Assembly (NCBI GenBank): GCA_010015805.1
Contig: ML978123.1
Coordinates: forward strand, 744,001-808,000
Direction of reading: 5' to 3'
Length of the DNA stretch: 64,000 nt
DNA from: Rhizodiscina lignyota
Lineage: Eukaryota; Ascomycota; Dothideomycetes; Aulographales; Rhizodiscinaceae
The notes under the pieces are model-generated. The model had not been told where the DNA came from and ran no database searches. It saw only the letters and a program-made list of their open reading frames with translations. Positions 1 to 29,260 of the stretch are shown piece by piece. The position numbers were made by a program, and so were the translations under genes. Position 1 is the stretch's first letter. Each line of letters starts with the position of its first letter.

Positions 1-122
1 GTCAGTCACACGAATTATACGGTCTCGGTGTTCATCAGTCGCCAGTCACAGATGCTGGCCTAGCGCTTACTTCATCTTACTTGATTACCTCTTCAGATCG
101 TATCGCTTTAGTACAACAACTT

Positions 123-1588
123 ATGACTCTGGTAAACCGATCACTTCTTCCCCTCTTGTATTTGCTTCGTAATCCTAAATCCTTTGTTCGGAAATTTTGC
201 GCAGAATGTATATCGTGTCTTTGCAGATACTTTAGCTCTTTTTCGTTCCACGGACTACTCCGACCTGTATCGACGATTATTTAGATTATTGGTTGCAAAG
301 ATTTTCAAAATGAATCTCAGTGAAGAAGAGACCAAAGCCATCAGAGCGTAAGTCATATATCTATCCCGGACTCTGTCACTTGGATACTGATTGCCAAGAC
401 TATAGTCAGATGTTCTCGACGCCGACTCTCCAGCGTTATAAGACATTTTGCGATGAGAAGTCTCTTCCCGTAAACGTTGAGGACATCTCAGAAGAGGCGC
501 AAATAGGCTGGCTCGGTTCTCCAAAGGCTTCTAAAGTTGTCCTGTACACATGCGGTGAGTTCACCATCGCGTTCGTGGAATGGTTCTCTTACTTTCATAG
601 GCGGCGGCCTGAAGGATCCGGCAACGCCATTCCATATACCGTTAATTTACAACGGCGTCCATCCGGTGCCCGAAGGCAATGAAGTTGCTGTTGGCCTTAT
701 CATGCATGGTACGTGCTGGACTGCATCGCATTAATGGATATCCGTGACGGCGCACAATTAACTTCTCAGGTCTCGCACCATCATGTCGATATCCTGGACA
801 GATTAGAGACTTCATTCTTGTTCTGAATCATATCTTGAAGACAAGACAAGCAAATTCGGTCAGCCTTCCGCCGGTCTAGTACAGTAGAGCCCAGTACGGC
901 AGCTAGTTGAGACAAGATCTACCTAGCAGGCGATTCGTCTGGATCCGCATTGATCATTGCCGCTCTCTTTCACCTCGCTCATCCGCACCCACATGTCCCT
1001 GCACTTGAATTACCGCTATCGCAGGCTTTCGCGGGCGGTCTTCTCATCTCTCCCGCGTTTCCGCTCCCTTCCTCCGCTCCATCGGTCGACAGCAACAACG
1101 GTAAAGATCTGTATCCTAAATCCTCCTTGGTGGAGATGCGGGATACTGTTAGCTCTTCGACAGAAGAAGGCTTCAAGTTGACCATGTCTGACCCGTACTT
1201 TGCACCGGAGCAAGCGCCAGAAGCGTGGTTTTCGAATTTACCCATTGGAGATGTTTTGTTCTTGTTCGGAGGCAAAGAGATGCTTCACGATGACCTCGCA
1301 ACATGGGCAGTGAGGTTCAAGGTAAGAAAGAAAAATATCTCGCTTTGTACCTCGAGCAGGGGAGCTTCCATGCGTGTGGAGCTATCCTCCCTTGGCCTAT
1401 TGCGGACGCACCAACTTGCTCTTTCTCGACCCAAACTAACAGTATTCCAGAGGCAACATAAATCGCTCGTCGATATACACGATAATCCAGACCATGTACA
1501 TTGGCAATTCATTGTTGATGCAATGATGGGCGGGGACCCGTCTGTGCAGACGTCTGATATTGTTAAATGGCTGCAGTCCCTCTATTGA
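123..1588 (+). CDS. alpha/beta hydrolase, steryl acetyl hydrolase/HSL-like (7 exons)
   Basis: Hand-built exons 123-168, 227-347, 406-554, 601-708, 770-858, 917-1321 and 1451-1588 close in frame to give about 351 residues, the usual length of the fungal HSL/steryl acetyl hydrolase family. Introns are 43-129 bases. Seen: GLAPSCRYPGQIRDF (family block LAPe..YP.Q), nucleophile elbow IYLAGDSSGS, a probable acid in GGKEMLHDDL, and a probable catalytic His in DNPDHVHWQF. These fit a serine esterase acting on an acylated small lipid or sterol; the substrate is inference. Odd: the oxyanion motif normally HGGG reads CGGG (VVLYTCGGGL). The intron before exon 6 could use the donor at 859 or 874, and its acceptor (caag at 916) is weak. 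The ATG at 123 was chosen because it is the first in frame with the exon-2 helical N-terminus. Confidence 0.72.
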
Positions 1589-1984
1589 ACGCGAAGTCCC
1601 CTCAGCAGCCACAACACTCCAAAACACGGCCAATTTCTTTACTCTTTCTTGCACCTCGCAATCAAATCTGCTGTAGACATCGCAGGTGTTTCAGTCGGGC
1701 CGACACATATCTCAGTTATATTCTTTGTCCCTTCCACACAATGCATTGTATGCGACACCGTGTTCTGGCTTCATGTGTGCAGCAACTCACTAAACTCTGA
1801 CACTGTGTGAGCAAGTATATGTTTCAATTGAAAGGACTCATACACTTGATGAAGATTCCCCCATCATTATCGGGTAGCAACCGTGTTTGCCTGCTTCTGT
1901 TGAATTTGATCCTCGAGCCCCCCAGTGTTTCCTTCATCCTGGATTTAGGCTCAGGTACACCACCGCGGATCTTCTTACACAGAT
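1589..1984. other. intergenic, 396 bases
   Basis: 3' flank of the hydrolase and 5' flank of the first tandem paralog. I see no gene or clear regulatory motif. Confidence 0.6.
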
Positions 1985-3412
1985 ATGGACGGGTTTGACT
2001 TCAATCCAGACCTCTTGCAGAAGCTGCAGGATCTGCCCGAATGGGGATTCGACCAAGCCACTGAAGGACAGCCAGACACTAACCAGAACGCAGATCTTGA
2101 GGGCACTGGGTGTGCTTCCGTAAGCACCGAAATATCTACGAAGCGCGTGCGAGATGAAACGGCCGATAACGAGGAGCAGCTTGCTCCACCAGACCTCAAG
2201 TCGAGCAAGAGTGGCCAGTTAGTTACAGCAGACGACTTGATTCTTGACGCTATAAACGACATCTCTGAGGAGGAATGGGCGGCTATCCTGAACAATCCTG
2301 GCCCGAACAACGAGCTTGATACTCACGACTCTTCCCCCGAAGCGCAGGTTGGAGCTACCGCAGCTTTTCAGGCTGAGTCCGACCCTTCTGCACCCGCTGG
2401 AACGTTGTTTACACCTATTAGGCTTCTCGAGCATTCACACTTGCTTTCTGGTGCAAATGCTGTTCCCGCTCCTCACCAGTATGCTCCGCCTCCTCAATTG
2501 CTGTCTGCAGCAACAGTCGCAGTACCCCAGCCTCTAAATAATACACAGGTCGTCGATTCGAAGGTCTACAAACTGGTCTTGCCAAACAGGGAGGTGGCCG
2601 CACAGGCGGCTCAAAATAGAGCATACTTGCCTACGCCATCACCGACTCCAGGGCCAGTTCAGTATTCCACGCTTTCCCTCCCCGCTCTCCCCAATGAATT
2701 CGTGCAGGCTGCTCCCATTCCCCCGTCAGTACGGAGGAGCCCTTTTGAGGTAGCTACGCCGGGATGGGCAGACTTGCGACTCATCAAAACTGTCATCACA
2801 GCTGATGAGATCTTGGCATATTTGCCGGAGCACCTGAAGGTCTATGACTGCCTTTTCCGTCTCATTTACAATGGCTTCTCGCAGTGTGACATTGCTGGAG
2901 CTTGTAACTTCTTCCGCGGAGCCGAGTTCGAAGGGGCTATGTTGCAGAACACTATTACGAAACGTATGAAATCGATCGAAGCCGCACGCCACCAGGAGAC
3001 AGGGATGAATGGTGGCCAGCCTTTTAAGGGAAACAAAGAACGGAAGATGCAGCATCTGCAATGGCCGTACTTCGACACGGAGAAATGGGGCGCACCACCA
3101 CGCACGACTCTGAAAGACTTTCCACTGGCCGGGCTAGCAAATGGACTTGTGGTGAGACCTTGGGGAGAAGGACGCGGCCCTCTGTCGAAGTCCATTGAAT
3201 ATGCTGAGATGCATCCGGAGTTGAATCTCATGTTGTCGAACGTCCCTGCAATCATGGCCTCGCAGGGTTTTAAACCCATCGAACCTGCTGGATGTAATAT
3301 CGACAAGAAGGCACGGGAACGTCTTACGCCTTACATTTCCAAGCGTGGGATGAGGTATCCTGAGCGGAGAACAGACCGAACGGACAAGGTCAATCTGCGG
3401 AAGAAGAATTGA
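1985..3412 (+). CDS. tandem paralog 1: unknown HTH-like family protein (475 aa)
   Basis: Single-exon ORF of 475 residues; I do not recognise the family. The first ~260 residues are acidic then Pro/Gln/Ala-rich and look disordered. Residues ~261-330 hold the shared core: ITADEILAYLPEHLK, then LIYNGFSQCDIAGACNFFRG, which resembles the turn of a helix-turn-helix (NG-x-x-Q-x-x-I). A second shared block follows: LAGLANGLVVRPWGEGRG, SIEYAEMHPELNLMLSNV and DKKARERLTPYI. The C-terminus is basic (SKRGMRYPERRTDR, NLRKKN). The same order of blocks appears in the next two genes (4430-5590 and 6633-8210), all on the same strand, so this is a tandem duplication. A nuclear or DNA-associated role is inference from the HTH-like core and basic ends. 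The ATG at 1985 is the first in the open frame. Confidence 0.75.
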   Translation: MDGFDFNPDLLQKLQDLPEWGFDQATEGQPDTNQNADLEGTGCASVSTEISTKRVRDETADNEEQLAPPDLKSSKSGQLVTADDLILDAINDISEEEWAAILNNPGPNNELDTHDSSPEAQVGATAAFQAESDPSAPAGTLFTPIRLLEHSHLLSGANAVPAPHQYAPPPQLLSAATVAVPQPLNNTQVVDSKVYKLVLPNREVAAQAAQNRAYLPTPSPTPGPVQYSTLSLPALPNEFVQAAPIPPSVRRSPFEVATPGWADLRLIKTVITADEILAYLPEHLKVYDCLFRLIYNGFSQCDIAGACNFFRGAEFEGAMLQNTITKRMKSIEAARHQETGMNGGQPFKGNKERKMQHLQWPYFDTEKWGAPPRTTLKDFPLAGLANGLVVRPWGEGRGPLSKSIEYAEMHPELNLMLSNVPAIMASQGFKPIEPAGCNIDKKARERLTPYISKRGMRYPERRTDRTDKVNLRKKN

Positions 3413-4429
3413 GATTCAGTCGATCAGAAATGTCTTGGATTGTCCACCCCCCTGATTCAGACATGTTTCTTAGCTCTTTGGGGGTTTGGTGTTCCGGCGT
3501 TCGGGCGTTTCGATTCCCCCTTTATTGGTTGCTCATTCGACCCTTCGCCCTGATGCGATAGGCAGAATATTATCGCGCGCATATTGCTGTTAGTCTACCA
3601 TCTCACAATCAAGAAAATTTAAAGTATTTCCTCGAAACTCTAATAAAGATGGTGAGATGACCAGGAGATTTTAGTTCACCTCATTGTTCCCATGACGAAG
3701 TCCGGGATACGGATACGTTTGCGGAAACCTGTCCCTACCCGTAGATGATTGCTTTTCAAACAATGACAACTGTCTTCCCTGAAAAAATATTAGTCCCGTA
3801 ATCCTTGACGCTTAACTCCGTTGATTGCGACTCTTGCTCATGCCTGGAAGCATATAAGGGTCCCCTATACCTACTGGATCGACCTGAACTAAAGAGCCCA
3901 TTCAGCAAAGATATATACCAAAACTTCCCATAATGTATAGTCCTTCCTATGTTTTCGTTCTCTCAACCGAGGATTCGACTTGAATAGGTCTCTGGACTCC
4001 GTACGTCATGGTGGCACAGCGCCGCACGTCAACGGCCATAATGTCCCCCTTTTCCATCGTCGCAGCATGTGCTGTAGCAGAACATCTCCACCGCTACCGT
4101 CGTCCAATGTCTGCGCACTTCCTTGGCCAACTAGGTTGAATAACGGGGTCCGTCCGTCCCCATTTGTGGGGGATACAAAGCGCTATTGCCTGCACAATGC
4201 CTTTGTTTCTGGACGATGGCAATGAAGACACTCAAGATGAATTTGTGTCGGCTGTCAACACCACAACTGGCCAACCTCACTAATTCTTCACGATGTATAT
4301 TTTCTCTTTACCAGTCCTAAAACTCTTTTGCCAATCATCGTCTGCAAGCGGTTTCGAACGTCCCAATCAACGAATCCAGTTTGTACGCGAAGAAGAACCC
4401 ATCGTCACATACATTTAAAGCTCTCAGCT
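3413..4429. other. intergenic between tandem paralogs 1 and 2
   Basis: About 1 kb without a supportable gene. A TATA-like catataagg lies near 3852, too far upstream of the ATG at 4430 to assign. An 81-codon ORF at 3980-4225 has no family features and is disregarded. Confidence 0.5.
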
Positions 4430-5590
4430 ATGTCATATCAAGAGAACGGGCAGGCGGGCCAGCCTTCGGGGTCTCGTCGTTCACCGACCCCTGAGCTCCG
4501 GCCACCACCATCAATGGAGGAGGCTCTCCGCGAGCTTGATCCTCCAAAGTGGTATCCTTGGATGGGCGGCAGGCCTGGACCATATGATATCGACATGTCT
4601 TCCCACTTCAGGGTTAGCACAGATCAGGATGGCGACAAGATAGTCGAGTTCATTCCGGGACGCAATGAGCCGTCCGAGCAATCAGAACTCGGCGACTCGA
4701 TTCGTCGTCCAGTCAAGCATGGGCGCGACGACGATGACCTTTACGAGGCTCCTCCAAGAAAACAAGGACGACCTAGAAAGTTCCTCGTCCCTCAGCCAGA
4801 ACATGTTATAGCGGGTCCTTCTACGGCTCCGGTCAACCAGCAGATGCCACAGATGGCGAACGGCACCCAGAACGGCTTTGGCAATCCGCCGACAATGCCA
4901 ATCCAGCCAAATGTGGCTCCTGCAGGTTTGCTAAGGCCGTCCCTCCTGGATGGCTCGAAGCTCCAAGGAGCCACCACTATATCAGCAAACATTGCGCTGC
5001 TGAATATTGACATCTCAGCGGAGGAGTACCTCACATTCTTCCCTTTACACTACCGCTGGAGACAGGGATTGCGTCGCCTGATCCGAAACGGTTGGGACCA
5101 GAACAGTATTGTCGGATACATTAACTGGTCTCGGAACCTGATCGGGCGAGACCAGGCCATTGACTGCAACACTCTCGTGAAGCAGATCGGAAGCGCGGAT
5201 GAAGAGGAGTGGGGGAGAAAATGGACCAAAGCTACAAGGCCACGGGACAGGGCTCAGTTGAATCTGAAGCCTGATTCATGGACAATAGCTAATCGCAGAG
5301 TAGAAGACGTGCTATTACGGACTCTGGTGGTTGGCGTTGTTCGTTTTCCGACTGGAGCTGGAGAGGGAGCGCTGACTCGGGCCGTCCGCTACGCGGTGGA
5401 ACATCCTGAGGAGGCTATCATGCTCTCTGGGGTCAACAACTTGATCCGTCGAGAGACTGTCCAGCTTCTGCACGTGCCCTGGGGCCAAAACCTAGACAAA
5501 GATGCTTTGAAGCGACACATGCCCATCATTGGGGCTGCGCAGTGGAGTACGCCCAAGGATTGGGCCAAAAGGAATGGCCTCTGGAATTAA
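4430..5590 (+). CDS. tandem paralog 2: unknown HTH-like family protein with AT-hook (386 aa)
   Basis: Single exon, 386 residues from the ATG at 4430. The frame is open further upstream to an ATG at 4328, but those residues are low-quality and Arg-rich, so the internal start MSYQENG is preferred. N-terminal block: DPPKWYPWMGGRPGP, also found in paralog 3 as HPWFPWMGS. Near residues 109-116, PRKQGRPRKF matches an AT-hook (GRP core flanked by basic residues), which binds the minor groove of AT-rich DNA in known proteins. The core from ~190 reads ISAEEYLTFFPLHYRW and LIRNGWDQNSIVGYINWSRN. The second block has VVGVVRFPTGAGEG, AVRYAVEHPEEAIMLSGV and LDKDALKRHMPII. The closest relative in the window is paralog 3. 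A DNA-binding role is inferred from AT-hook plus HTH-like core; the target is unknown. Confidence 0.75.
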   Translation: MSYQENGQAGQPSGSRRSPTPELRPPPSMEEALRELDPPKWYPWMGGRPGPYDIDMSSHFRVSTDQDGDKIVEFIPGRNEPSEQSELGDSIRRPVKHGRDDDDLYEAPPRKQGRPRKFLVPQPEHVIAGPSTAPVNQQMPQMANGTQNGFGNPPTMPIQPNVAPAGLLRPSLLDGSKLQGATTISANIALLNIDISAEEYLTFFPLHYRWRQGLRRLIRNGWDQNSIVGYINWSRNLIGRDQAIDCNTLVKQIGSADEEEWGRKWTKATRPRDRAQLNLKPDSWTIANRRVEDVLLRTLVVGVVRFPTGAGEGALTRAVRYAVEHPEEAIMLSGVNNLIRRETVQLLHVPWGQNLDKDALKRHMPIIGAAQWSTPKDWAKRNGLWN

Positions 5591-6632
5591 GCATAGATGC
5601 ACGCTTAGAAATACTTGGTTTTGCGAGTTTGAAATTTGTCAAAAATTTGGGAAAGCAGTCTTAAGAGAGAGCAATAACAGAAATCGCTCGCTGAAGACTC
5701 AAGCACATGAGAGACGCGAAAATGTCCATAGATAACTGAAATCCATGAAATATCAATTGAAGCGCAAACCATTTCGTACGAAGTTCCACAGTGAATTTGT
5801 GGGTTGTCCTCGCTCATTGAGCAGCTTTGGCCATATTCGGCCTCATGAGCTGCCCAATGGATATCGCAGAAAACCCGCCAGTGGAGTCCTGACGGCTTCT
5901 CCAGTGTACGACTCGAATCCCGTATGTTCACCAGACATGAACTGTGTGCTAATGTCGCCATGAGCGAGACAGAATCCGTCAGATAATGCCGATGGACGAA
6001 ATTGCGGTATGTGATATGCGGTACGTGTTCATCCGCCGGTGTTCGCCCACTGGCAACGAATGGGAATGATCTGTACCCGTGCTAATCCGTCTGAGAGAGG
6101 TAAAGCAGATAGCTGCCCCCTTTATCGCCATTCATAGCTTGTATATAGACCTGAGTTAGTTCATGGTTAGTCTTCGTTCCTTGTGCCTATTAGATGTCCG
6201 CCCATCTCAGCATGAGATCTCGTAGGAGAGACGAATTCACGTCCTACGTAGTCGAACACACTCTAGATGATAGTGGCTCCCTCGTTGGGAAGTATCAGGC
6301 GTGAGGGACGCTTCCTGGACGATTCGAGGATATGTGAGGTCGAATACAACCTCGGTGATAATGGCCATTCTGCGGGTCGTCATCATCGTCATCGCCCTGC
6401 GCGCGGATGTGTGTTCATAGTAGCCCTCCTCTTTGCCTAGACTGTGTCCACTTTCTGAGGCTAAAGGTGTTGTAGAGATGATAAATCGCATAGAAAGGCT
6501 TCTGCTCTTCTTCACTCCATCAATCTCTCCATCCACCTGTCTCTTCGACTCCAGCACGTTGAGCACAGCTCTTTCGACGTCACCAAACCCTTTGTACCCT
6601 TTTACAAAGGACTCCAAAAGACCAACAGTAAA
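5591..6632. other. intergenic between tandem paralogs 2 and 3
   Basis: About 1 kb. A TATA-like tatatag lies near 6141. A 139-codon minus-strand ORF (6237-6656) overlaps the paralog 3 start and has no recognisable features. No gene supported. Confidence 0.5.
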
Positions 6633-8210
6633 ATGTCCATACAAGCAGCCCAGCATGGCGCTCTGCCGCTCAGCGCGCTAGTCGAACCTCTCACCGATTC
6701 CGAGTCATCGTCGCAGCTGCCAATCGCATATCGGCGAGCGCTCTATCATCCACACCCATGGTTTCCATGGATGGGAAGCTTGCCAGCTTTCCATAAAAGC
6801 GACGCCTTGGTACGACCTGCGCATCTCGATGGTGATGAGCCACAGCTAACACTTCAGATCGTCAACCAGTCGACCGCTCTGACAGCTCAGCAGCAGCAGC
6901 AGTTGGGTCATCGGTTAGTCAATCATAGGGAGAATTCGTGAGTGCTCTTGGGTTAAGTGCTGATGAGTTACAGGTGTACCCAAACGAAGCGAAAGAACCA
7001 AGCGACCGAACCTCCGAAGCCTTCGCCCAAACGGCAGAAGATGAACCCAAAGGGCGCGCAATAGTAAGTTGGTTGGTAAGAAACATACCTGTGATAGTAA
7101 CCACTGAGCAATGCGGATAGGAATAGGATCCCGAATACATCTCCCACTCCTCACGGTATTCAAGACATATCGAGCTCAACCCACACGAGCATCCAGAACG
7201 ATAGTGGTGATGGCGTCCATGAGTACAATGTCAAGAAGGACATCACCGACAAGAGCAATGCCCAACTAGCCAACCCCAGTGGCTTCATAGACCCCGCCCT
7301 CCTCCTAATTTCGCGTCCAAGTCCAAGTCTAGGTCTAGGTCTAATGGTTGGCGAGACAACTAACAATACCGAGTCTTCCGGACCAAGCACGTCACGTGGC
7401 CCAGGAGTGGACTTCAGCGTCTATCCGGCTTTCCAGGGGAATGAAGGCAATATGGTGCAGGGCCAGACACCGGTCTCCAGTAACTCGTCTCATCCTCCTG
7501 TTTCGTCATCGCAGCACGTGACACAACAGACTCCGCTCCTACAAGTGCCGCAACCAAGCACCACCAGAGCCCCCACGATGTTGCAGAAGCTCCAAGGTGG
7601 GACGCCTCTGACAGCAGACATTGGTTTACTCCACGTTGATATCACTCTCGAGGAGTTCTTGACCTTCTTCCCGGCTCATTATCGCTGGAAGCTGAGCCTC
7701 ATCCGTGTGATCTACAACGGATGGACACAGGCTGATATTGCTGCGTATCTTAATTACGCAAGGAACTTTCAAGGCAATATGGCAGTGAGAGAAAATTCCA
7801 TCAGGAAGGTAATCGTGGAGGCGGAGAAGACACACAAGGGTGGTGTCTTTACAAACAGCAACCGTCCGATGAACCAGCCGGTCCATGACATGAAGCCAAC
7901 AGGATGGGAGCCAGCGGAAAGGTACAAGTCGGACCTTAAGGACACCCTGCTGGTCTCGCTGGCAGCTGGGGTGGTGAATTGGCCGGCGACGGAAGGTCGG
8001 GGGGTATTAACGCAGGCAATTGAGTACGCGCTGAGTAACCCAGATCGGAAGTTGCGATTGTCGGACGTGGATGGGTTCGCCGCCATACCTGGGATTGCGG
8101 GAGTCCAGCAGCCAACTGGCCCGGCGACAAATCATGACAAAGAGGCTCTAGAGCGTCTCCAGCCGATTCTTCGCCAGAAGCAGTGGCGCAAGCCCATGGG
8201 AAACATATAA
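6633..8210 (+). CDS. tandem paralog 3: unknown HTH-like family protein (3 exons, ~490 aa)
   Basis: Proposed exons 6633-6913, 6974-7063 and 7109-8210 give 490 residues in frame. Exon 1 carries RALYHPHPWFPWMGS, matching paralog 2, and ends in a short Gln run. Exon 2 encodes a Lys/Arg-rich stretch (TKRKNQATEPP, KPSPKRQKMNPK) that looks like a bipartite nuclear signal. The core from ~residue 297 reads ITLEEFLTFFPAHYRWK and VIYNGWTQADIAAYLNYARN; the second block has LAAGVVNWPATEGRG, AIEYALSNPDRKLRLSDV and HDKEALERLQPILR. Intron 2 (7064-7108) uses a weak GAG acceptor; the more obvious TAG acceptors at 7120 and 7126 would create a stop, so this junction is the least certain part. The third exon alone is secure. 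Function unknown. Confidence 0.66.
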
Positions 8211-9156
8211 TCTGCAGATGCTGTAGTATGAGGGAAGAGTGTGAGGACATAGTGTAAGGGAATGGGACAAGGGAAGAGTATGAGGCAAGAGTTATGAAGA
8301 AAAGGGGATATTCGGACCTAGGTGGAGGGTATAAGTGAGGAAGAAGAGGGTATCGATGCGTATTTATGGTTGCTGTACCGGGGTGTACCATCCGCGTACC
8401 ATACGCGTCGAAGGTGTCTGGTGTCTCTCCGCAAGTACGTTCTGAGGTATCTTCACTGGAAGATGCGAGCATTACTGTCCACGTGTCTAGCAGCATCGTG
8501 AAGCGGGAGTTGGTTCTTCGAAGTCGTTATTGTTCTTGTTGGGAGTTTGGGTATTTTTTCATATCGGTCAATACACCTTCACCAGTTGTACAAGAAGCTT
8601 GCATACGCGTACCTTCGCCTGTTCCTGAGATTCGCGGCAAAGGGTCTTATCGATCGACCACTCGCCGCGGCGACGGGTGTTGGTGCTTCCCTGTCGCTGG
8701 GGCTGAACGCCGGTTTCCAGAGCTCCAACCACGTCTAACAATCACGTGTGTAGCGGCGTTCCTGCAGGTCTGCTGCAGTCGATGTGAAAGAGGGCATGCT
8801 GATTTCTAAACCCCACAGCGACGTCGGAAGGTCATTGGAAGCGCATGCGAGATGAGCTTCACCGCCCAGCACGGGCGGCCGGGAATGGGCCATCCGAACC
8901 ACGCCACCCTATCACACAACCTCTCCTTGGCACAACCATCCTTTCCCAAGCAATACTCCGTACATTCGAGCCATTGGCTTACCACGCTCTCTTCTGACGA
9001 CCAGGAAAGGGCATTGGAGCATCTGCGCGCCTTTCCAATTCAAATCCAGACGCTTTTCATGCTCTCCTGTTTCTCTAGATCCCCCCTATTAAGTCGTCGC
9101 ATCTGTACGGGACCGCGCACCTTCGAAACGCATATACAACAAATATCTGGCCCAAT
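8211..9156. other. intergenic and probable ERG5 5' region
   Basis: About 950 bases. ORFs at 8366-8809 and 8852-9241 lack family features and codon consistency; the second runs into the ERG5 first exon in another frame. No gene supported. Confidence 0.5.
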
Positions 9157-10973
9157 ATGGCCGCCGATTTCAGTTACGCCTCTCCCACGGCGGATGCAAC
9201 CTCAGCGCCTCTGGTGTTCACAGGAACTCTGGGCGGATTGATCGGGCAGGTCCTCACAGGAGTGCAAATATGGCATATCATCGTGACCCTGATTCTCGGT
9301 CTGGTGGTCTACGACCAGAGTGAGTAGCAGCGGCGATCCCGGGAGCCACTCTACAGCTATACTGACAGTCGCAAAGTTTCGTACATCTGGCACAAGGGGT
9401 CCATCGTTGGTCCATCTTGGAAAACGCCATTCATTGGACCCTTCCTCGATTCGATGAACCCGCAATTCGAGCAGTATATGGCCAAATGGCTCAGTGGTCC
9501 GCTTAGTTGTGTATCTGTCTTTCACAAGTAAGCTCCGCTCTATGGCCTCATAGCATATTCAAACTAACCTGTATTAGATTCGTCGTGATCGCATCGACGC
9601 GCGACATGGCTCGCAAAGTCTTCAACTCTCCGATGTTCGTCAAGCCATGCGTCGTCGATTCCGCATACAAACTCCTCCGACCTACAAATTGGGTGTTTTT
9701 GGACGGCAAGGCACATGTAGACTACCGGAAGGGTCTCAATGGCTTGTTTACACGCCAGGCTCTGGAGTCTTACATGCCAGGACAGGAGGAAGTATACAAC
9801 AAGTACTTCGCCACGTTCTTGCAAATCTCAAAGGAGAACGGCTATAAGCCAAAAGCTTTCATGCCGGTCTTCCGCGAGCTGCAGTGCGCGATCGCGTGCA
9901 GAACCTTCGTCGGCCACTACATGCCAGAGTCGTCGATGAAGAAGATTGCGAACGACTATTATCTTATCACTGCAGCGCTCGAGCTCGTAAACTTCCCCAT
10001 AATCCTTCCATTCACCAAGTCATGGTATGGTAAGAAGGCGGCAGACATGGTACTCGATGAGTTTGCCAAGTGCGCCGCAAAGAGCAAGGTTCGCATGGCA
10101 GCTGGTGGAGAGCCAGAATGTATCATGGACCGCTGGATTCAGTCAATGTTTGCTTCAGAAGCATACAGGCAGAAGGTAGCGAAGGGCATTGAGGTAGACC
10201 AGTCTGAGAAGCCAGATATGCTCATCCGCATGTTCACCGATTTCGAAATTTCCCAGACTGTCTTCACCTTCCTGTTCGCATCGCAGGATGCGACCAGCAG
10301 CGCGTGCACATGGCTCTTTCAAATCATGGCGGACCGACCAGAGTTCTTGGACAGAATTAGGGAGGAGAACCTCGCCGTACGCAACGGTGATCGCAACATG
10401 CCGATTTCCTACTCGATGATGGAGAAGATGACGTATACGAGGGCAATTGTGAAGGAGGTGCTTCGGTACAGGCCACCCGTAATCATGGTCCCCTACGTGG
10501 CCAAGAAGGACTTCCCAATCACCAGCGATTATACTGTCAAGAAAGGTACGTTTGTATCGGCGTATTTAATGCTTCTAGCTCTAATACAACCTGTAGGCTC
10601 TATGGTAGTCCCGACAACTTATCTCGCCCTACATGATCCTGAAGCATACCCGAACCCTGATTCATTCGATCCAGAACGATGGATCACTGGCGACGCTGAG
10701 AAACAGGTCAAGAACTGGCTCGTCTTCGGCACCGGTCCCCACTACTGCCTTGGCCAGATATACGCGCAGTTCAACCTGATGGCCATGATTGGCAAGGCGA
10801 GCATGTTCCTCGACTGGGAGCACCAGATCACTCCCCTCTCGGAACAGATTGAGGTCTTCGCAACGATCTTCCCGAAGGTAGGTCATCCATCTTCCCAATT
10901 CGGAATGATGTTCATGCTGACACGCGTTTCATAGGATCACTGCCTGCTCTCTTTCAAGCAGCGTCCACAATAG
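9157..10973 (+). CDS. ERG5: sterol C-22 desaturase, cytochrome P450 CYP61
   Basis: Exons 9157-9319, 9377-9527, 9578-10545, 10597-10877 and 10935-10973 give 533 residues, the normal CYP61 length. The N-terminus has one membrane anchor ([14 protein letters not shown]), placing it on the ER. Seen: the CYP61-type I-helix [15 protein letters not shown], the ExxR helix KEVLR, the PERW block, and the heme-binding loop [11 protein letters not shown] with the Cys thiolate ligand. ERG5 introduces the C-22 double bond late in ergosterol synthesis. The small last exon ([12 protein letters not shown]) restores the usual C-terminus. Four short introns, all GT..AG. The ATG at 9157 was chosen because it yields the anchor directly. 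Confidence 0.95.
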
Positions 10974-21012: not shown

Positions 21013-24000
21013 CTACCAATCGATGCCGTTTGCGCCTCTCTCCCCGCCTGCCAGAATCATCTTCGCCGTTGCTATCTCACCCTTTCCACCCTCAAAATGA
21101 CTCGCTTGCAGCCCTTTCCTGCCCTTCATCCGCTCCAGCTTCTTATCCAACTTCTCAAATGGATCGGTCGTCTCTGCCTTCTTTATCTTCCACTTCTCCG
21201 TGCCCAGCACCGAGTCCAATTCCTCGACTGGCGGGAGTTTGACGTACACCCAGCCATCATCCCTCTCCTCCACCGGAAACGTCGCAATGTTGACCTGGTC
21301 GTCGTTCCCGCACTTTCCTGCGCTCTCGCCTCCAAGTTCATAGTTGCGCTTGTGGTACGGACAGCTGACCCAGAGTTTATTGTTCGCGAGGTCCTCTCCG
21401 ATCAAGCCGTCGGCGAGTACGAAGGCACGCTTGTGCGGACACATCTGCTGGGTGCAGTAATACTTGCCGCGAACCTTGAAGACGGCTAGCTGCGTGTCGC
21501 CGCGCTTGATAGCCTGGCTATCGCCTGTTGCGACGTCTCGGAACAGGTCGGCTTTGACCATGGGCTGCCACGTCAAATTACTCCACTTGGTACCACGGAA
21601 GTCCTCTTTAACTGACTCCTTGGGCCAGTACGACGGCCGTGCCTGGCCGCGCTCAACGGTCGGTTCGATTGTGTCGACAATGTTATCGTCAGTGTTGGCA
21701 AATTGATTGAAGAGTTTCCGACGCTCCGGATCCTTGATGACTTCAGTCCATTCGCAGAAATATGATCCAACAAGCTCCTCCATCTGCTTTTCCAACTCCG
21801 CGCAGATACCGAGCTTATCCTCTAAGATCACTTCGCGCAGATATTTTATGCCGCCCGGCAAGTTCTCGACCCATCTGGCCGTTCTCTGTAGTTTATCTGC
21901 GGTGCGAATGTAGAAGCTGAGATATCTGTCCAGTATGGGAATGACGTCGTCTGGCGGTACGTCCTTGGCCAGCAGTTCCGAATGTCGGGGTTTTGCACCA
22001 CCATTACCACCCACAAAAATGTTGAAGCCCTTCTCTGTCGCGATAAGGCCGAAGTCCTTATTTTGTGCTTCGGCGCACTCACGAACGCAGCCAGATACAC
22101 CACCCTTGATCTTGTGCGGGCCTCGGATGGACTTGTATCGTTCCTCCAGCCGAACGGCCATGCCCACGGAATCGCCAATGCCAAACCGACACCATGTGGT
22201 TCCCACACACGACTTGACTGTGCGAAGAGACTTTGCATATGCATGACCAGACTCCATCCCTCCCTCAATGAGCTCGGTCCAGATTGCAATAAGATCCTGT
22301 TTCCTAGCTCCGAACATGTCGATTCTCTGCCCACCAGTGATCTTTGTATAGAGGCCGTACTTCTTCGCGACAGTACCGATGATGATCAGCTTCTCAGGGG
22401 TAATCTCGCCGCCTGCAACCCTGGGAATGACTGAAAAGGTACCGTTGCGTTGAATGTTTGCTAAGAATTTGTCGTTCGTGTCCTGCAACCCTCTTCGGCC
22501 CCCGCCGATAATGTGCTTGTTGAAAAGCGATGCGATGATAGATCCAATTGCTGGCTTACACGCCTCGCAGCCCAAGGACTGGGGGTCCTTGCCGCATTCC
22601 TTCATGATATCTGGGAAGGACTGTAATTTTTTGACATAAATGATGTTGAATAGATCGGCTCGTGAATACTCGAAATGGGGGCAGAGGTGATTTTTTACCT
22701 CCTGTCCCATGGACGCCATGGCCTTGTTGAAGATGGTCGTGACCAGCGGCATGCAGCCTCCACAACCAGTACCAGCCTTTGTGCAGGCCTTGACGTCGCC
22801 AATGCTCTTGCATGTACCATCTTTTATGGATTTGACTACATCGCCCTTATTGACATTGTGGCACGAGCAAATTTGCGTATCATCGGCGCTGATTGATAAT
22901 TAGAGAAGTCCCCAAATCGGAAAGAAGAGTACTCACAGGTCATCCGCATCATCATCTTTCGATGCACCAACAATAAGTTCGCTTGGAGGGATTTCCAGAG
23001 GTTTCTGGTTCTTCACCAGTGGTACCAGTTTGATGTAATCTTTCGTATCGCCAATCATCATGCCTCCAAGCAAGTATTTGCCATCCATCGTGAAGAGGTA
23101 CTTCTTGTATACTTGTGAAAACGGGTCTTTGTAAGTCAACGCCTTGACAGGAGGAGGTGGCGGTCCATCTGTCAGCGATTTGACACGCTCTTTCGCCTCG
23201 ATGATGCCCTCCTTCTTCCCGCCGTGTCTCTTTGTAGGCAGTTCTTTCGGTCCGTCCCTATCTGCGAAAAAGTCGCCAAAGCTCGCAACCTCAACGCCGA
23301 GCAATTTCAACTTCGTGCTAAGATCAGGCCGTTTAAATGTCCGCGGAGAGTGTGCTTTAGCTTGCGTGAGATTGAAGGCTAAGACGTCCGCCATCTCTAC
23401 ACCTGGTGCGATCAGGCCAAACGTTTGATTCTCCCAGCTTGCGCATTCTCCGATTGCGTAGATGTCGGGAATAGACGTAGACAAATCGGTCTGTACTACA
23501 ATGCCACCACCTCGATCGGCACATTTGATGCCGGCTTTGCGCGCCAGGTCATCGCGAGGTCTTATACCAATCTGCAAGCATGAGCGAAAAGCCAATTGAC
23601 TTGTCGTCGAGATCGACTTACCGCAAAGCAGATGCAACTGCAGTCCATTTCTTCGCCATCCTCAAACTTTACACCAATCACGTTGTTATCCGCGTCCGTA
23701 TGGACCTTCCCAACTCGCTTGCTGAGAAGAACTTCCAGTCCCAGTGCTTGGACCTGCTCCACAACCATGCCACCAGCATCACCATCAAGCTGTCTTGACA
23801 GCACCCAACGATTCCGTTCTATCAACTTTACTTTGCTGAATTGCTCAAGGTCCATCATGGCTTTCGCCGCTTCTAGGCCTAGCAAACCTCCGCCCACTAC
23901 CGCGCCCGTAGTGCCTTTCTTCGTTGCCGCAAAGTCGATGAGGTTCTGTAGATCGTTGATTGTTCGATATACGAAGACGCCTTTTGCATCGTGGCCTGGT

Positions 24001-24525
24001 GTATGTCGCGGCAGTAATGCATCTGAGCCAGTCGCAAGAACAAGGATATCGTAGGAAACGTCGTCACCCGCAGATGTCTTCACGGTTTTGTTCTTCGAGT
24101 CGATATCTGTCACACGCGTATTGATGTGATAGCTTAATGAACCTTCTGGCATACTTGAATACTAGATGGAATCGCGTTAGCCCTTGAAGAAAGCCACATG
24201 TAGAGTAAGAACTGACCCATTCTTTTGGATTCAGATACAAGTTTTCGATTTCCCGATGCTGAAAGAAGCTCGTCAATCCCACACGATTGTAGGCAAGATG
24301 TGGCTCCTCTCCAATGACGACTATGTCGTATTCGCGTCGCTTGATATCGAGCTTCATCAATTTCTCAATGAACGCGATGCCGACCATCCCCAGGCCTACA
24401 ACCACTATCCTCTTTCTGCCTGTGCCATTGGGCAGTTCCTGCTTTAGCTTCATCTCTTCCACCTTCTCGGGGAGTCGGTTCGCCTCAGCATCGTTCCACT
24501 CCCGATTACTCTGACCCCAGTCCAT
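21013..24525 (-). CDS. niiA: assimilatory nitrite reductase [NAD(P)H]
   Basis: Minus-strand exons 24525-24217, 24161-23622, 23571-22937 and 22888-21013 give 1119 residues, normal for fungal NiiA. Order: FAD/NAD(P)H module starting [19 protein letters not shown], with [16 protein letters not shown] and DIYAIGECA; a BFD-type [2Fe-2S] motif CSCHNV...CGGC; the ferredoxin-like nitrite/sulfite reductase domains with siroheme/[4Fe-4S] ligands SCVGTTWC (C-x5-C) and GCVREC (C-x3-C); and a C-terminal Rieske-type domain with CPHKR and CPYHKRNY. It reduces nitrite to ammonium with six electrons. It lies directly downstream of niaD on the same strand, 761 bases apart, with its own promoter containing a NirA-type site. 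Three introns of 55, 50 and 48 bases. Confidence 0.96.
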
Positions 24526-25286
24526 GCTGATGCTGCTACTTCCGCAGGCACTGGAGTGCCCAGAAATGCAACGCTTAAAGGGTTTTGATCAAAGACGATC
24601 GTACCAAACAGATGGCCTTTCCTCAATGAAGGAGGTCGAGCAAACTGGGAGAGGGTTTTAACCTCAAGAGGCCTTCAGACAAAATCCCATCCAACACCAA
24701 TGTTGCGCTTACGCTGAAGGCAAAAACATAAACTCTGAAGGTTGAAAAAAGGTTCCAGGCGAACCAAAAGGATTGCAAAAAGAGAAACCGGCAATTACAG
24801 TTTCATTCAATGGCCTACCTAATCCGAATTGCAGAACTCTCCATCGCCGGAGATGTCATAAACAGAGTTCGACCACAGAATACCCCAGATGCACGTCACT
24901 ATCGCGATCCAAAGTCCGCGCAAATGCATCATGGCGCACAGATGCCATAGACAAGCAGAATTAATCGATAAGCATGGGATACATGTTCGCCTCCGTGGTC
25001 TAGACAGCGCGTGGATTGGTTTGTTCAACCGTTCCTGGTTTCTCCGGGGAAAGAAGAGTGCAGCGATCCTGATAAGAAGCTGATTGATATGTGGTGAGAC
25101 GTTAAGGTAAGGATGCGCCGAGACATTAGCGGAGAAAGAGTCCTATCTTGAATGGTGGCGAGCCTTTAACGAGCTGGTGCCATATCTATGCGGTGGACTA
25201 CATCTGAGATTTGGCATTTACTTGCTCTACCTGATGTGGGAAAAATACGAATATACATATTGTACAATGAATGACGAGCGTTTTGT
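24526..25286 (-). promoter_or_regulatory. niiA promoter with NirA and GATA motifs
   Basis: The 761-base stretch between the niaD stop and the niiA start. Seen: CTCCGTGG at 24991-24998, a full match to the NirA consensus CTCCGHGG known from Aspergillus nidulans; GATAAG at 24967-24972 (19 bases away) and again at 25071-25076, matching the AreA HGATAR consensus; and CCGGGG at 25044-25049, matching the CreA consensus SYGGRG. The close pairing of NirA and GATA sites fits nitrate induction plus nitrogen metabolite repression. Binding is inferred. Confidence 0.65.
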
Positions 25287-27960
25287 CTAGAAAAATAGCA
25301 GATCAGAGTCTTTCCAACCAATTTCGTTCAACGCCAGATGCACGCTCTTCTCCAAAGTCTCTGGGCCGCATATCAGCACCAACGTGTCCGCCGTCTTTGA
25401 AGCATGCTCTCTCAGTAGTGGCGCTGCTATTCTCCCTCTCAATCCTTTCCAGTCATCGGGACCCTGAGTTAATGTATACAACAATTTACACTTTTGCTCA
25501 TTAGCCATAGCAAATTGATCCAGTTCCGCTTTGCATAGAATATCCTCAAGCAACCGATTTCCATCGAGCAACGTGCAGTGCGTGTGATCGTCCTTGTCTT
25601 GCATCACTGCTCTGAAGACCTGGTATATGGGCGTGATACCACTTCCACCACATATCATGATGAAGCGCTCAATAAAACGTTCCTCTTGGTTGACAGCACA
25701 CTTCCCGCGGCCAAGATACTCAAATTTGCCGATTGGGCCTTTGAAGTCTATGGCGTGGCCGATGGGTATGGCGTCCATTGCCATCGACATTTTTCCACCT
25801 GCTCGCTCTTTGGTGTCAAAGTATATCTTGACCAGTACATCGAGGTATCCTCTCTTCGTGGTCTGTGAAATTGGGGTGTAGCTTCTGATGATAGCTTCGC
25901 GCGTCACTGGGTCGCGGATGCGCACCATGAGATGCTGCCCGGTAGGCAATCCGAGAATCTGTTCGTCATGATCGAGCTTGAATGTAAAAATTCGAGTGTC
26001 CCAAGAGACGATTTCCTTCGCTTGAAGTACGGCTTTAGTCCAATTGCGAGGGTCCAGGAAGATGGGTCGCGGTTCATTCGATTCCGGTTTAATTTCCCCT
26101 TCGCTGAGAACACGGCGAGATGCCTCGTCCAAGGTACCGATATGATATGTTGGCATCATCGCCTTTGCAGTCTCACTGTCTGTTTGATGTCAACACTAAT
26201 GTCACATAGGCACTGCAAATTAACTTACGAATCGCCATGAATTCATCCGTAGCATCCAGCCCAGCAGCAGATATAATACTCTGTGCTCCACCTGGATGCT
26301 CCTTGAGAAATGCAGTGCCATCATAGACTTCGCCGTTCACAACGAACCATGGATTGCTGTCGTTGTCGTGCTTTCGTAGCTCGTCAATCGTGATCTCGTT
26401 ACTCAGGCCATCCTTCGTCATCTTGATCTCTGCTGATGTCTCCTCTTGCGCTTCTTCTTTGACGGATTCTCCTCCCAGCCTATCACCCCAGTAGCCATTC
26501 ATTAAATTGCCCCCCTCCTTCTTCACGCGCTCCATCCAACCGCCAGGCATGAGCGCGGGTTGTGTTGGGTGCTCAAATCGTATTGTATCTCCCTCCAAAT
26601 GTATAACCACTCTGAACCAAGCGTTGTTCATCATTCCCATCACTGACCAATACATGTCTCTTGGTTGAAGATTCATGCTTTCATCCATTGCTCGGACCAC
26701 GACGTCTTGTGCTGTCTTCAGTTCCTCGATCGGAATATCGAGCTGCCAGAAACACCAGCAGAAACATGTATCTCTCCAACCCACGTCTAAAGTACCACCG
26801 AAAAGCTCTTGTTCTCTCGCTTCTCGATACCGATCTTCCGCATAATCAATATTTGCGAGTCGCCATGTTTTGCCCTTGTCCAGTGATAGTTCCACTCTTG
26901 TAATGCGACGCCCATCACCTGCATATGCATATCCTCTCACTCCGTACCTCTCCAGGCGGCTATTCAGCGGTAATCGCTCATCATGAGCAGGACATGCGAT
27001 TGCTGAATTTGTGCTCAAACCATATATTGCGTATCTCTCATCCGTCCACCACTCGGGCTTGTTCGCTGCCTCTTCCGGGCTGATCATGGTTGGTAATACT
27101 CTGTTGTCATAGATATGGTACCAATTGTCGCTCGGCCCCTCAGTGACTATCAGCTTTTTCAGCCATTTGACGCTTCGGCCACCAATCTGCCCGGGTACCA
27201 CGGCGCGCAACGGCTTGCCATGGTCTGGCAGCAGCATTTCCCCGTTCATTTTGTATGCAAGCATCATTCCGCGGTTTGGGTCCATAGCCCAGGTGAGCCT
27301 CACACCTGTGCCATAGTAACCATTTGGTAACTTGTCTGCGCCTTCCATGCAGAGCCACCGCGCTCTTCTTTTTGGTTTTGCTCGACGCAGCACATCGCCC
27401 ATGACAACACCAGTGAACAACGCTGTCGAGAGCCCGGCGGGACCCCACGAAAAACCTTTCGTCTTTCGTACAACATTTTGCTCCTTGCGTCTGTTACCGG
27501 CACAAACAAGGGTGATTGGGTAAGTCTTCTGCTCGTAGTCCGCGATGAGGTCTCTGAGAGTGATCTTCAGAGGATTACTGACGAGACCTTCGACAGTGAA
27601 CTCCCAGTCGGGGATGTCTGCATCGTTTACTTCGGGCACGGGTCCATGATTCCGGACATAGAAAAGTTCGGGGCTGGTGAGAAAGCCTTCGTTGAAAAGG
27701 TCGGTGAGAGGTGCTTCAACATTGAAAGGATGAACTCCAGTTAGCCGTATTAATCTGGGATCTCTTGGGACGTGAAAGTCTGGCGTTTTCTTGTCGACTT
27801 CGAGGACTGCAGTCGGAGGTACTGATGGTGGTGGCAGCGGAAAGTCTATGCACTCTGAAGACGAGCTCTCTCCATCTTCAGTATCTGGAGGCGTAGGGGG
27901 AAAGCTGACTGGAGTGACGCCTAATTTTGACTCGATTTCGTTCTTCGTGGCTGCTCCCAT
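25287..27960 (-). CDS. niaD: assimilatory nitrate reductase [NADPH]
   Basis: Minus-strand exons 27960-26229 and 26179-25287 give 874 residues. Order: a Pro/Ser-rich leader; the molybdopterin domain with the Mo-ligand Cys153 in LVCAGNRRKEQN; the Mo-Co dimerisation domain (WFRVVIHLEG at its end); the cytochrome b5 domain with heme ligands His555 (HPGG) and His578 (AIHSE); and the FAD/NADPH reductase module with IIRSYTPIS, ICGGSGITPIYQ, ICGPE and the C-terminal SDLLFF. It reduces nitrate to nitrite in the cytosol. The single 49-base intron splits the codon of His578. It lies head-to-tail with niiA, unlike the divergent arrangement in A. nidulans. Confidence 0.97.
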
Positions 27961-29260
27961 CGTGAGAAAAATGAAGTGGACGATCTATGACATAACTTGG
28001 AGATTGATAGATTGTGAAGGAGCGGATTAGAAGACAGCAATAATCCTACAAATGACGAATGCAAGGAAAGACGATAAGCCCGAAAGAGTAAAACTGTGTA
28101 AAACAAATTGACTTCACCCGGAAAGGACTCAAAGGAGAGGTTACACGAAAGGAAACTCAAATTGCGTCCTATTATTGTTTCGTCATATCCATTAGCCACA
28201 GGTAGGTTGAGTACATGCCCCGGAGATGGGCAATGCAAGCAAGCGCCAGATCTCAACCACACAGGTACTTACCTACGATCCTCCAACCCCGCGGAGGTGC
28301 TTCAGCTTTTAGTCTGCTGGTAAGGCGAAAGGGGCCCCAGATCGGTGGGTACTGCCTGGATGTACGAGGTTTCGACATGCGGCTAAGAAATTCCTTATCG
28401 CGAGGCTCAGATAGCGAATCAGCATCGACGTGATACGCGACTCTTCCCGCCAGCGGAAACTCTTAAGTGTATATAGTGTCCTCATTGTAGCTGTGACGTG
28501 TACGAATAAAATGAATCCAAAGGTTAGAGCATTCAGCTCAACTCTTTAGTTATAGCTGTGCAGAGGATTCTGCTGGTGCTTCTGCCGGGTCAGCCCTCTA
28601 CTGGTGTCGCAAAAGAGAAACTGGGCAATAGCACCGTCAAGAACGATTTCTGGATGTCAGGGTAATTGCTTTGTATCGCAGAAAAAAAAAGCCATCAGCA
28701 AGATGTCAAGTAACGACGTCATTCTAAAGATCTGATGTTGAAGGGTGAAGTTCCATCAAAGTTTCGATCTTCGCGTAATAGAAATTGGCCATCACGTGAA
28801 CACGCGCCTCCTTCCGTCTACCCCTTTTCGCGATCGCAGCGGGTCTACAACAGGACTTCAATGTGCGGAGTATTTCTGCCATCGCATTTGGTTGCATTGT
28901 GAGTGCGAATTGCTGCAAGAGCACCTTAAAACCCAATCAAAGCACGGCAGCCGGACGAAAGGGCTAGTCACGCAAGCAAGAGTGTTTGGGGGTAGTTTGG
29001 AGCCAATACTGTTCGCTCCTGTCGATGTCATTTTGGACTCAATAGCCAACTATCTGGCTAAGTCAAGGCTTGCTGACCGTTGTTTTCAGTCCCTACAAAA
29101 GCCATTTCGAGAAATCGTCTGCGCCGACAACACCCTGTGACCCTCACCTAAAGCCCTGTCCTTCAGTTCCATTTGAGCAAGAACCATGTCCTAAACTGTC
29201 TCTGCACGACTGCTTCAATTCTAATAGCCTGTTTGCCATCAGACTGAGCATCAATTCCTG
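27961..29260 (-). promoter_or_regulatory. niaD promoter region with NirA and GATA motifs
   Basis: About 1.3 kb with no gene. On the minus strand CTCCGCGG at 28289-28296 fully matches the NirA consensus CTCCGHGG, about 330 bases upstream of the niaD ATG. GATAAG occurs at 28073-28078 (plus strand) and 28394-28399 (minus strand), and AGATAG at 28409-28414. Small ORFs here (28108-28323 and 28745-29140) have no features. The part beyond ~28700 is also the 3' flank of the Myb-like gene. Confidence 0.6.

Follow-up and report, generated by a model that had tools for sequence, protein, structure and literature searches.

A two-block protein family in Rhizodiscina lignyota whose members resemble gene-switch proteins

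We found in the genome of Rhizodiscina lignyota a two-block protein family to which no name could be given from Pfam, NCBIfam, or PDB sequences, and whose members look like gene-switch proteins. Three of the four genes (G1, G2, and G3) belong to the window, that is, the whole stretch of 64,000 nucleotides that was analyzed (C3:744001-808000), and the fourth lies on contig C1; the searched genome comprises 33.4 Mb in 29 contigs. The sequence comparisons directly established that both blocks are homologous across the four genes, how many members the genome search found, and that the protein is under constraint. As the best explanation, we consider an unnamed family of nuclear DNA-binding regulators of the helix-turn-helix (HTH) type, amplified by old tandem duplication, and we hold it to be somewhat better than an even bet.

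Catalogues of fungal regulators are built mainly on DNA-binding domains that are already known, and a conserved core without a family model would escape them. If the core binds DNA, the family would add regulators that are otherwise annotated as hypothetical proteins. Additionally, four genes in one genome would form a small test system for the predicted regulatory role of the core.

Three tandem genes and their common core

The earlier note had described a triad of same-strand genes with two-block cores, and this was borne out by the coordinates of three plus-strand open frames in tandem (Table 1), by BLASTP, and by Smith-Waterman scores against shuffled sequences. The common core is C-terminal, comprises about 200 amino acids, and is alignable over its full length. 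Identical residues numbered 77 of 193 between G2 and G3 (BLASTP E 5e-47), 69 of 193 between G1 and G3 (5e-30), and 60 of 196 between G1 and G2 (2e-19), each E referring to a single comparison. The Smith-Waterman core scores of 358, 248, and 170 were about three- to seven-fold over the shuffle maxima of 51, 50, and 55, with 500 shuffles per pair.

Table 1. Positions of the family members and their parts. Coordinates refer to the window unless contig C1 is named.
Feature	Position	Strand	Remarks
G1	1985..3412	+	475-aa protein, single open frame
G1 parts, N to C			acidic/aromatic N-terminus (MDGFDFNPDLLQKLQDLPEWGFDQ), long low-order linker, core, basic tail
G1 block 1 (HTH-like)	2780..2995	+
G1 block 2	3086..3361	+
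G2	4430..5590	+	386-aa protein, single open frame
G2 AT-hook-like basic motif PRKQGRPRKF	4754..4783	+	read by eye; no model match
G2 block 1 (HTH-like)	4985..5206	+
G2 block 2	5279..5554	+
G3	about 6633..8210	+	upstream exon(s) and last exon; splice sites judged by eye
G3 exon 1	starts at ATG 6633	+
G3 possible middle exon	6975..7061	+	open stretch; basic nuclear-signal-like cluster KRK...PKRQK
G3 last exon	from about 7109-7127 to 8210	+
G3 block 1 (HTH-like)	7626..7844	+	sequence used for folding
G3 block 2	7905..8195	+
C1 member, open frames	C1:1231797-1232513 and C1:1232555-1234048 (L009:3797-6048)	minus	5' end approximate

The block 1 motif proposed earlier fitted all three proteins (ITADEILAYLPEH, ISAEEYLTFFPLH, and ITLEEFLTFFPAH, then NG[FW]xQxxI), and D-K-x-A-x-x-R was exact in each of them. 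The block 2 motif was also present in all three, although the pattern as written was slightly too strict: G1 has GLV for GVV and SI for AI/AV, G2 has AGEG for EGxG, and G3 has NPD for HPE. Block 2 is conserved on a par with block 1.

Disorder-promoting residues made up 61-71% of four N-terminal stretches; in the three window cores their share was 56-57%. This measure of composition is crude and separates N-termini from cores only modestly. The N-termini had been said to differ, which is true of G1 but probably only in part of G2 and G3, as G2 and exon 1 of G3 have the stretch MSxQ...PxW[YF]PWMGxxP in common. The score of this pair (54) was the best of five N-terminal comparisons, and 2 of 1000 shuffles equalled or exceeded it; the other four comparisons were at chance, with 605, 408, 463, and 453 per 1000 shuffles reaching the score. 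Upstream of its core, G2 carries PRKQGRPRKF, which resembles the AT-hook consensus (a GRP core with basic flanks). However, the G2 motif is single, short, and without a model match, and it was not seen in that form in G1.

The coding sequence of G3 extends 5' of the 7101-8210 frame. The 5' splicing of this gene is odd (6914-7126): when the middle stretch was joined to the last exon through the most typical donor and acceptor, a TAG resulted, so the middle stretch may be intronic. The TAG would not arise with a single long intron, or if the acceptor were an unusual one.

In the aligned cores, codon-position identity was 0.46-0.48 at position 1, 0.57-0.63 at position 2, and 0.33-0.37 at position 3. 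Near-random third positions in a kept protein suggest old duplicates with selection on the protein. No DNA repeats of at least 25 bases were found within positions 1-9600, and on this ground, together with the third codon positions, a recent duplication was rejected. From these comparisons, G1, G2, and G3 are best read as old tandem paralogues under protein-level constraint.

A distant fourth member on contig C1

The fourth family member, which was absent from the earlier note, is distant and was reached weakly by genome BLAST with the window cores, with E values of 0.004 for the G1 query and 0.26 for the G3 query; the G2 query did not find the locus at E up to 1. In the reverse search with the C1 exon as query, G1 was matched at 0.007 and G3 at 0.117, and G2 was not found. 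The three-core profile scored 46.1 bits against the second C1 exon alone and 60.0 bits (E 7.9e-17) against the second exon with the joined end of exon 1, whereas 5000 shuffled versions of the second exon reached at most 10.3 bits. Block 1 alone resulted in an E of 1.2e-9 (36.6 bits versus 8.0 for the best shuffle), and block 2 alone in an E of 9.5e-7 (27.0 bits versus 10.7). The profile was run on a background of 1085 six-frame open stretches of at least 40 amino acids, the members among them, taken from the window and from L009, and the matches listed (down to 4.5 bits) comprised no open stretch besides the window members and the C1 exon. Both blocks, in order and above chance, were thus found over the whole core in G1-G3 and block by block in the C1 member, whose intron signals are typical (GTAAGT...CTAAC...CAG).

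A consensus built from all four members was submitted against the whole genome at E up to 10. It returned the same four places, all in open frames, and no fifth; this search takes no account of introns and its scoring is confined to the top candidates, so it may overlook a member that is more fragmented or further diverged. A weak match to the G2 query on contig C11 (E 0.587, with an internal stop) was rejected because it was missing with the other three member queries and with the consensus.

Upstream of its core, the C1 member harbors a six-cysteine cluster (C-x2-C-x8-C-x5-C-x2-C-x6-C, read by eye) that was not seen in G1-G3, and it also has a basic segment, GKKRKHE. The Pfam model Zn_clus (PF00172) matched the second half of the cluster, in exon 1, with 9.7 bits, where the cut-off is 21, and matched none of G1-G3. 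With the cysteine-bearing first exon as genome query, only the exon itself was found.

Known families and predicted fold

The earlier note knew no named family with this layout, and nothing credible emerged from Pfam, NCBIfam, or PDB sequences. Pfam, NCBIfam, and PHROGs were searched at E up to 10 with program filters that discard most matches above about 0.1, and no HTH family was listed in any of them under these settings. Pfam-A gave no family for the G1-G3 proteins, and NCBIfam gave no match for five sequences. The four sequences submitted to PHROGs gave one weak match, PHROG 29414 (function not annotated, E 0.4), which was rejected as it matches G2 only. In Pfam, seven separate blocks left two weak traces, Lipase3_N (E 0.11) and Pentapeptide_3 (E 0.017), the four-member consensus left one, PgaA_barrel (E 0.1), and the C1 exons left the Zn_clus trace only; the first three were rejected as single-sequence matches under the cut-offs.

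Searches of the PDB sequences gave one chance-level match for G3 by itself, one for the profile of the three cores, and three for the block 1 profile built from four members. These matches (a GST homologue at 0.75, cysteine synthase at 2, adenylate kinase at 0.11, and SAVED proteins at 0.22 and 0.4) were mutually inconsistent and were therefore rejected as chance. The three-core alignment gave 151 pattern matches in viral and 63 in prokaryotic contigs, of which none was confirmed. No description of the two-block family was found in the part of the literature that the search covered, which is not proof of its being unpublished.

The full core, predicted from three sequences, had a mean pLDDT of 43.9; the model was uninterpretable beyond being helical, and it was left out of the fold searches for this low mean. 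In this model, the block 1 region had means of about 50-64. The second helical block suggested by the earlier note was predicted as helical, but with block-mean pLDDT of only 28-60. Block 1 was folded for one of the four members, G3 (73 aa, four aligned sequences), and the AF2 model had a pLDDT of 70.8 and a pTM of 0.54; the five AF2 models ranged from 57.0 to 70.8 in pLDDT. Its helices span residues 8-13, 21-30, 35-45, and 56-72, with ten-residue pLDDT means of 74-82 over residues 21-70. The connector before the last helix, of about 10 residues, is longer than the classic HTH turn.

The Foldseek search of G3 block 1 against the PDB resulted in 80 matches at E up to 10 and none at 0.001, with a best E of 1.7. 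Six rows among the 50 of 80 matches listed superposed at an rmsd of at most 2.5 Å (4xvn, 8zwn, 7r3g, 4y13, 6jqs, and 4y15; E 2.4-7.7). They represent five distinct HTH proteins: one is the small terminase of a phage, and the others are regulators of the LuxR/GerE type, with SdiA present twice. The first row was the Pax-6 paired domain (3.4 Å), and the second a UFL1-DDRGK1 chimera (3.5 Å). The matches listed also comprised non-HTH rows at 4.8 Å or more (carboxymuconolactone decarboxylase-type chains, kinases, and phosphatases) and HTH regulators that superposed badly, namely VraR at 6.7-6.8 Å and LiaR at 8.5 Å. The BFVD structure search gave 202 matches, none significant (best E 0.85), and the 50 of 202 listed were mostly uncharacterised or unnamed.

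In its helix order and rough superposition, block 1 resembles LuxR/GerE-type and paired-type HTH units (8zwn, 4y13, 6jqs, and 6pax), and EvgA (8zwn) superposed at 1.5 Å over 53 columns. However, the E values of these four are non-significant (1.7-7.2), their sequence identity with block 1 is 12-20%, the connector of block 1 is longer, and block 1 has no sequence-family match. The compact DNA-binding-type fold proposed earlier is thus moderately supported as an HTH-like block 1 by the model pLDDT and the HTH superpositions, whereas the structural matches fell short of significance.

Candidate explanations and gene neighbourhood

The regulator reading draws on the helix order, the HTH superpositions, the basic segments of G2 and C1, the sub-threshold Zn_clus match, and the N-terminal composition, from which we infer an HTH fold, DNA binding, a nuclear location, and a regulatory role, along with a role for block 2. 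Block 1 would be a helix-turn-helix type unit that contacts DNA, and the low-order N-terminus would supply basic nuclear-signal or AT-hook-like segments. The acidic-aromatic stretch of G1 could activate transcription, block 2 may form another helical module through which the protein dimerises or binds a partner, and the C1 member would add an atypical Zn2Cys6-like cluster. The four-sequence model of a single member, the spread of its five versions, the lower means of this region in the full-core model, the non-HTH rows, the badly superposing HTH regulators, and the negative sequence searches for HTH families count against the HTH reading, as do three further points taken up below. The Zn_clus score under its cut-off and the crude disorder measure also weaken the regulator reading. 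More tentatively, and with rather less than an even chance, the members could be lineage-specific fungal regulators with an undescribed two-domain core, an HTH-like block joined to a new helical effector block, and the dispersed C1 member would pair this core with a zinc cluster that the triad lost or never had.

Those three points, namely the non-significant structure matches of block 1, its long connector, and the only mild net charge of the cores (+2 to +7), would also suit a core that does not read DNA but serves nuclear or chromatin proteins as a helical module for contacts with other proteins; the AT-hook-like and basic segments alone would then confer nuclear or DNA association. Block 2, which is without an assigned fold and as conserved as block 1, fits such a module too. 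We consider it unlikely, though worth serious attention, as both the order of the helices and the structures that superpose best speak for an HTH, and all four members have R27, R46, and K61 unchanged in block 1.

The cysteine cluster of C1 raises the question of a diverged branch of known fungal regulators, for example Zn2Cys6 proteins, with the zinc cluster lost in the triad. Its layout ahead of the core is similar to that of the Zn(2)-Cys(6) binuclear cluster regulators, and Zn_clus weakly matches its second half; nevertheless, the first loop has 8 residues versus the usual 6, the match stays under the curated cut-off, the three window proteins have none, and the shared core matches no Pfam regulator domain, which makes this origin improbable. 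Slightly more improbable still is a core derived from a domesticated mobile-element protein (the part with which a transposase or recombinase binds DNA) and then duplicated in tandem. Domestication can leave an HTH-like domain in few low-copy genes, and the family would fit such an outcome, but Pfam gave no transposase or integrase match, the repeat search over 1-9600 was negative, and the four genome places are all in open frames.

The neighbours of the triad have no clear functional link to it. Pfam at 1e-5 was run on 10 of the 46 window open stretches of at least 180 aa, and 7 matched. The frame upstream of the triad (911-1585) had no Pfam match at 1e-5; it is presumably hydrolase-like, with a GDSSGSA motif that we take to be esterase-like, and it could represent an esterase gene that has diverged or is broken. 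Downstream, a cytochrome P450 (Pfam, 9507-10931) adjoins the triad, and its heme region presumably recalls the sterol desaturase CYP61/ERG5; a rhodanese protein and a CPSF1/RSE1-type propeller protein also lie downstream. Two domain sets (Pfam), one of a nitrite reductase and one of a nitrate reductase, stand side by side at 21016-27984 on the minus strand, and they likely form a nitrate-assimilation cluster.
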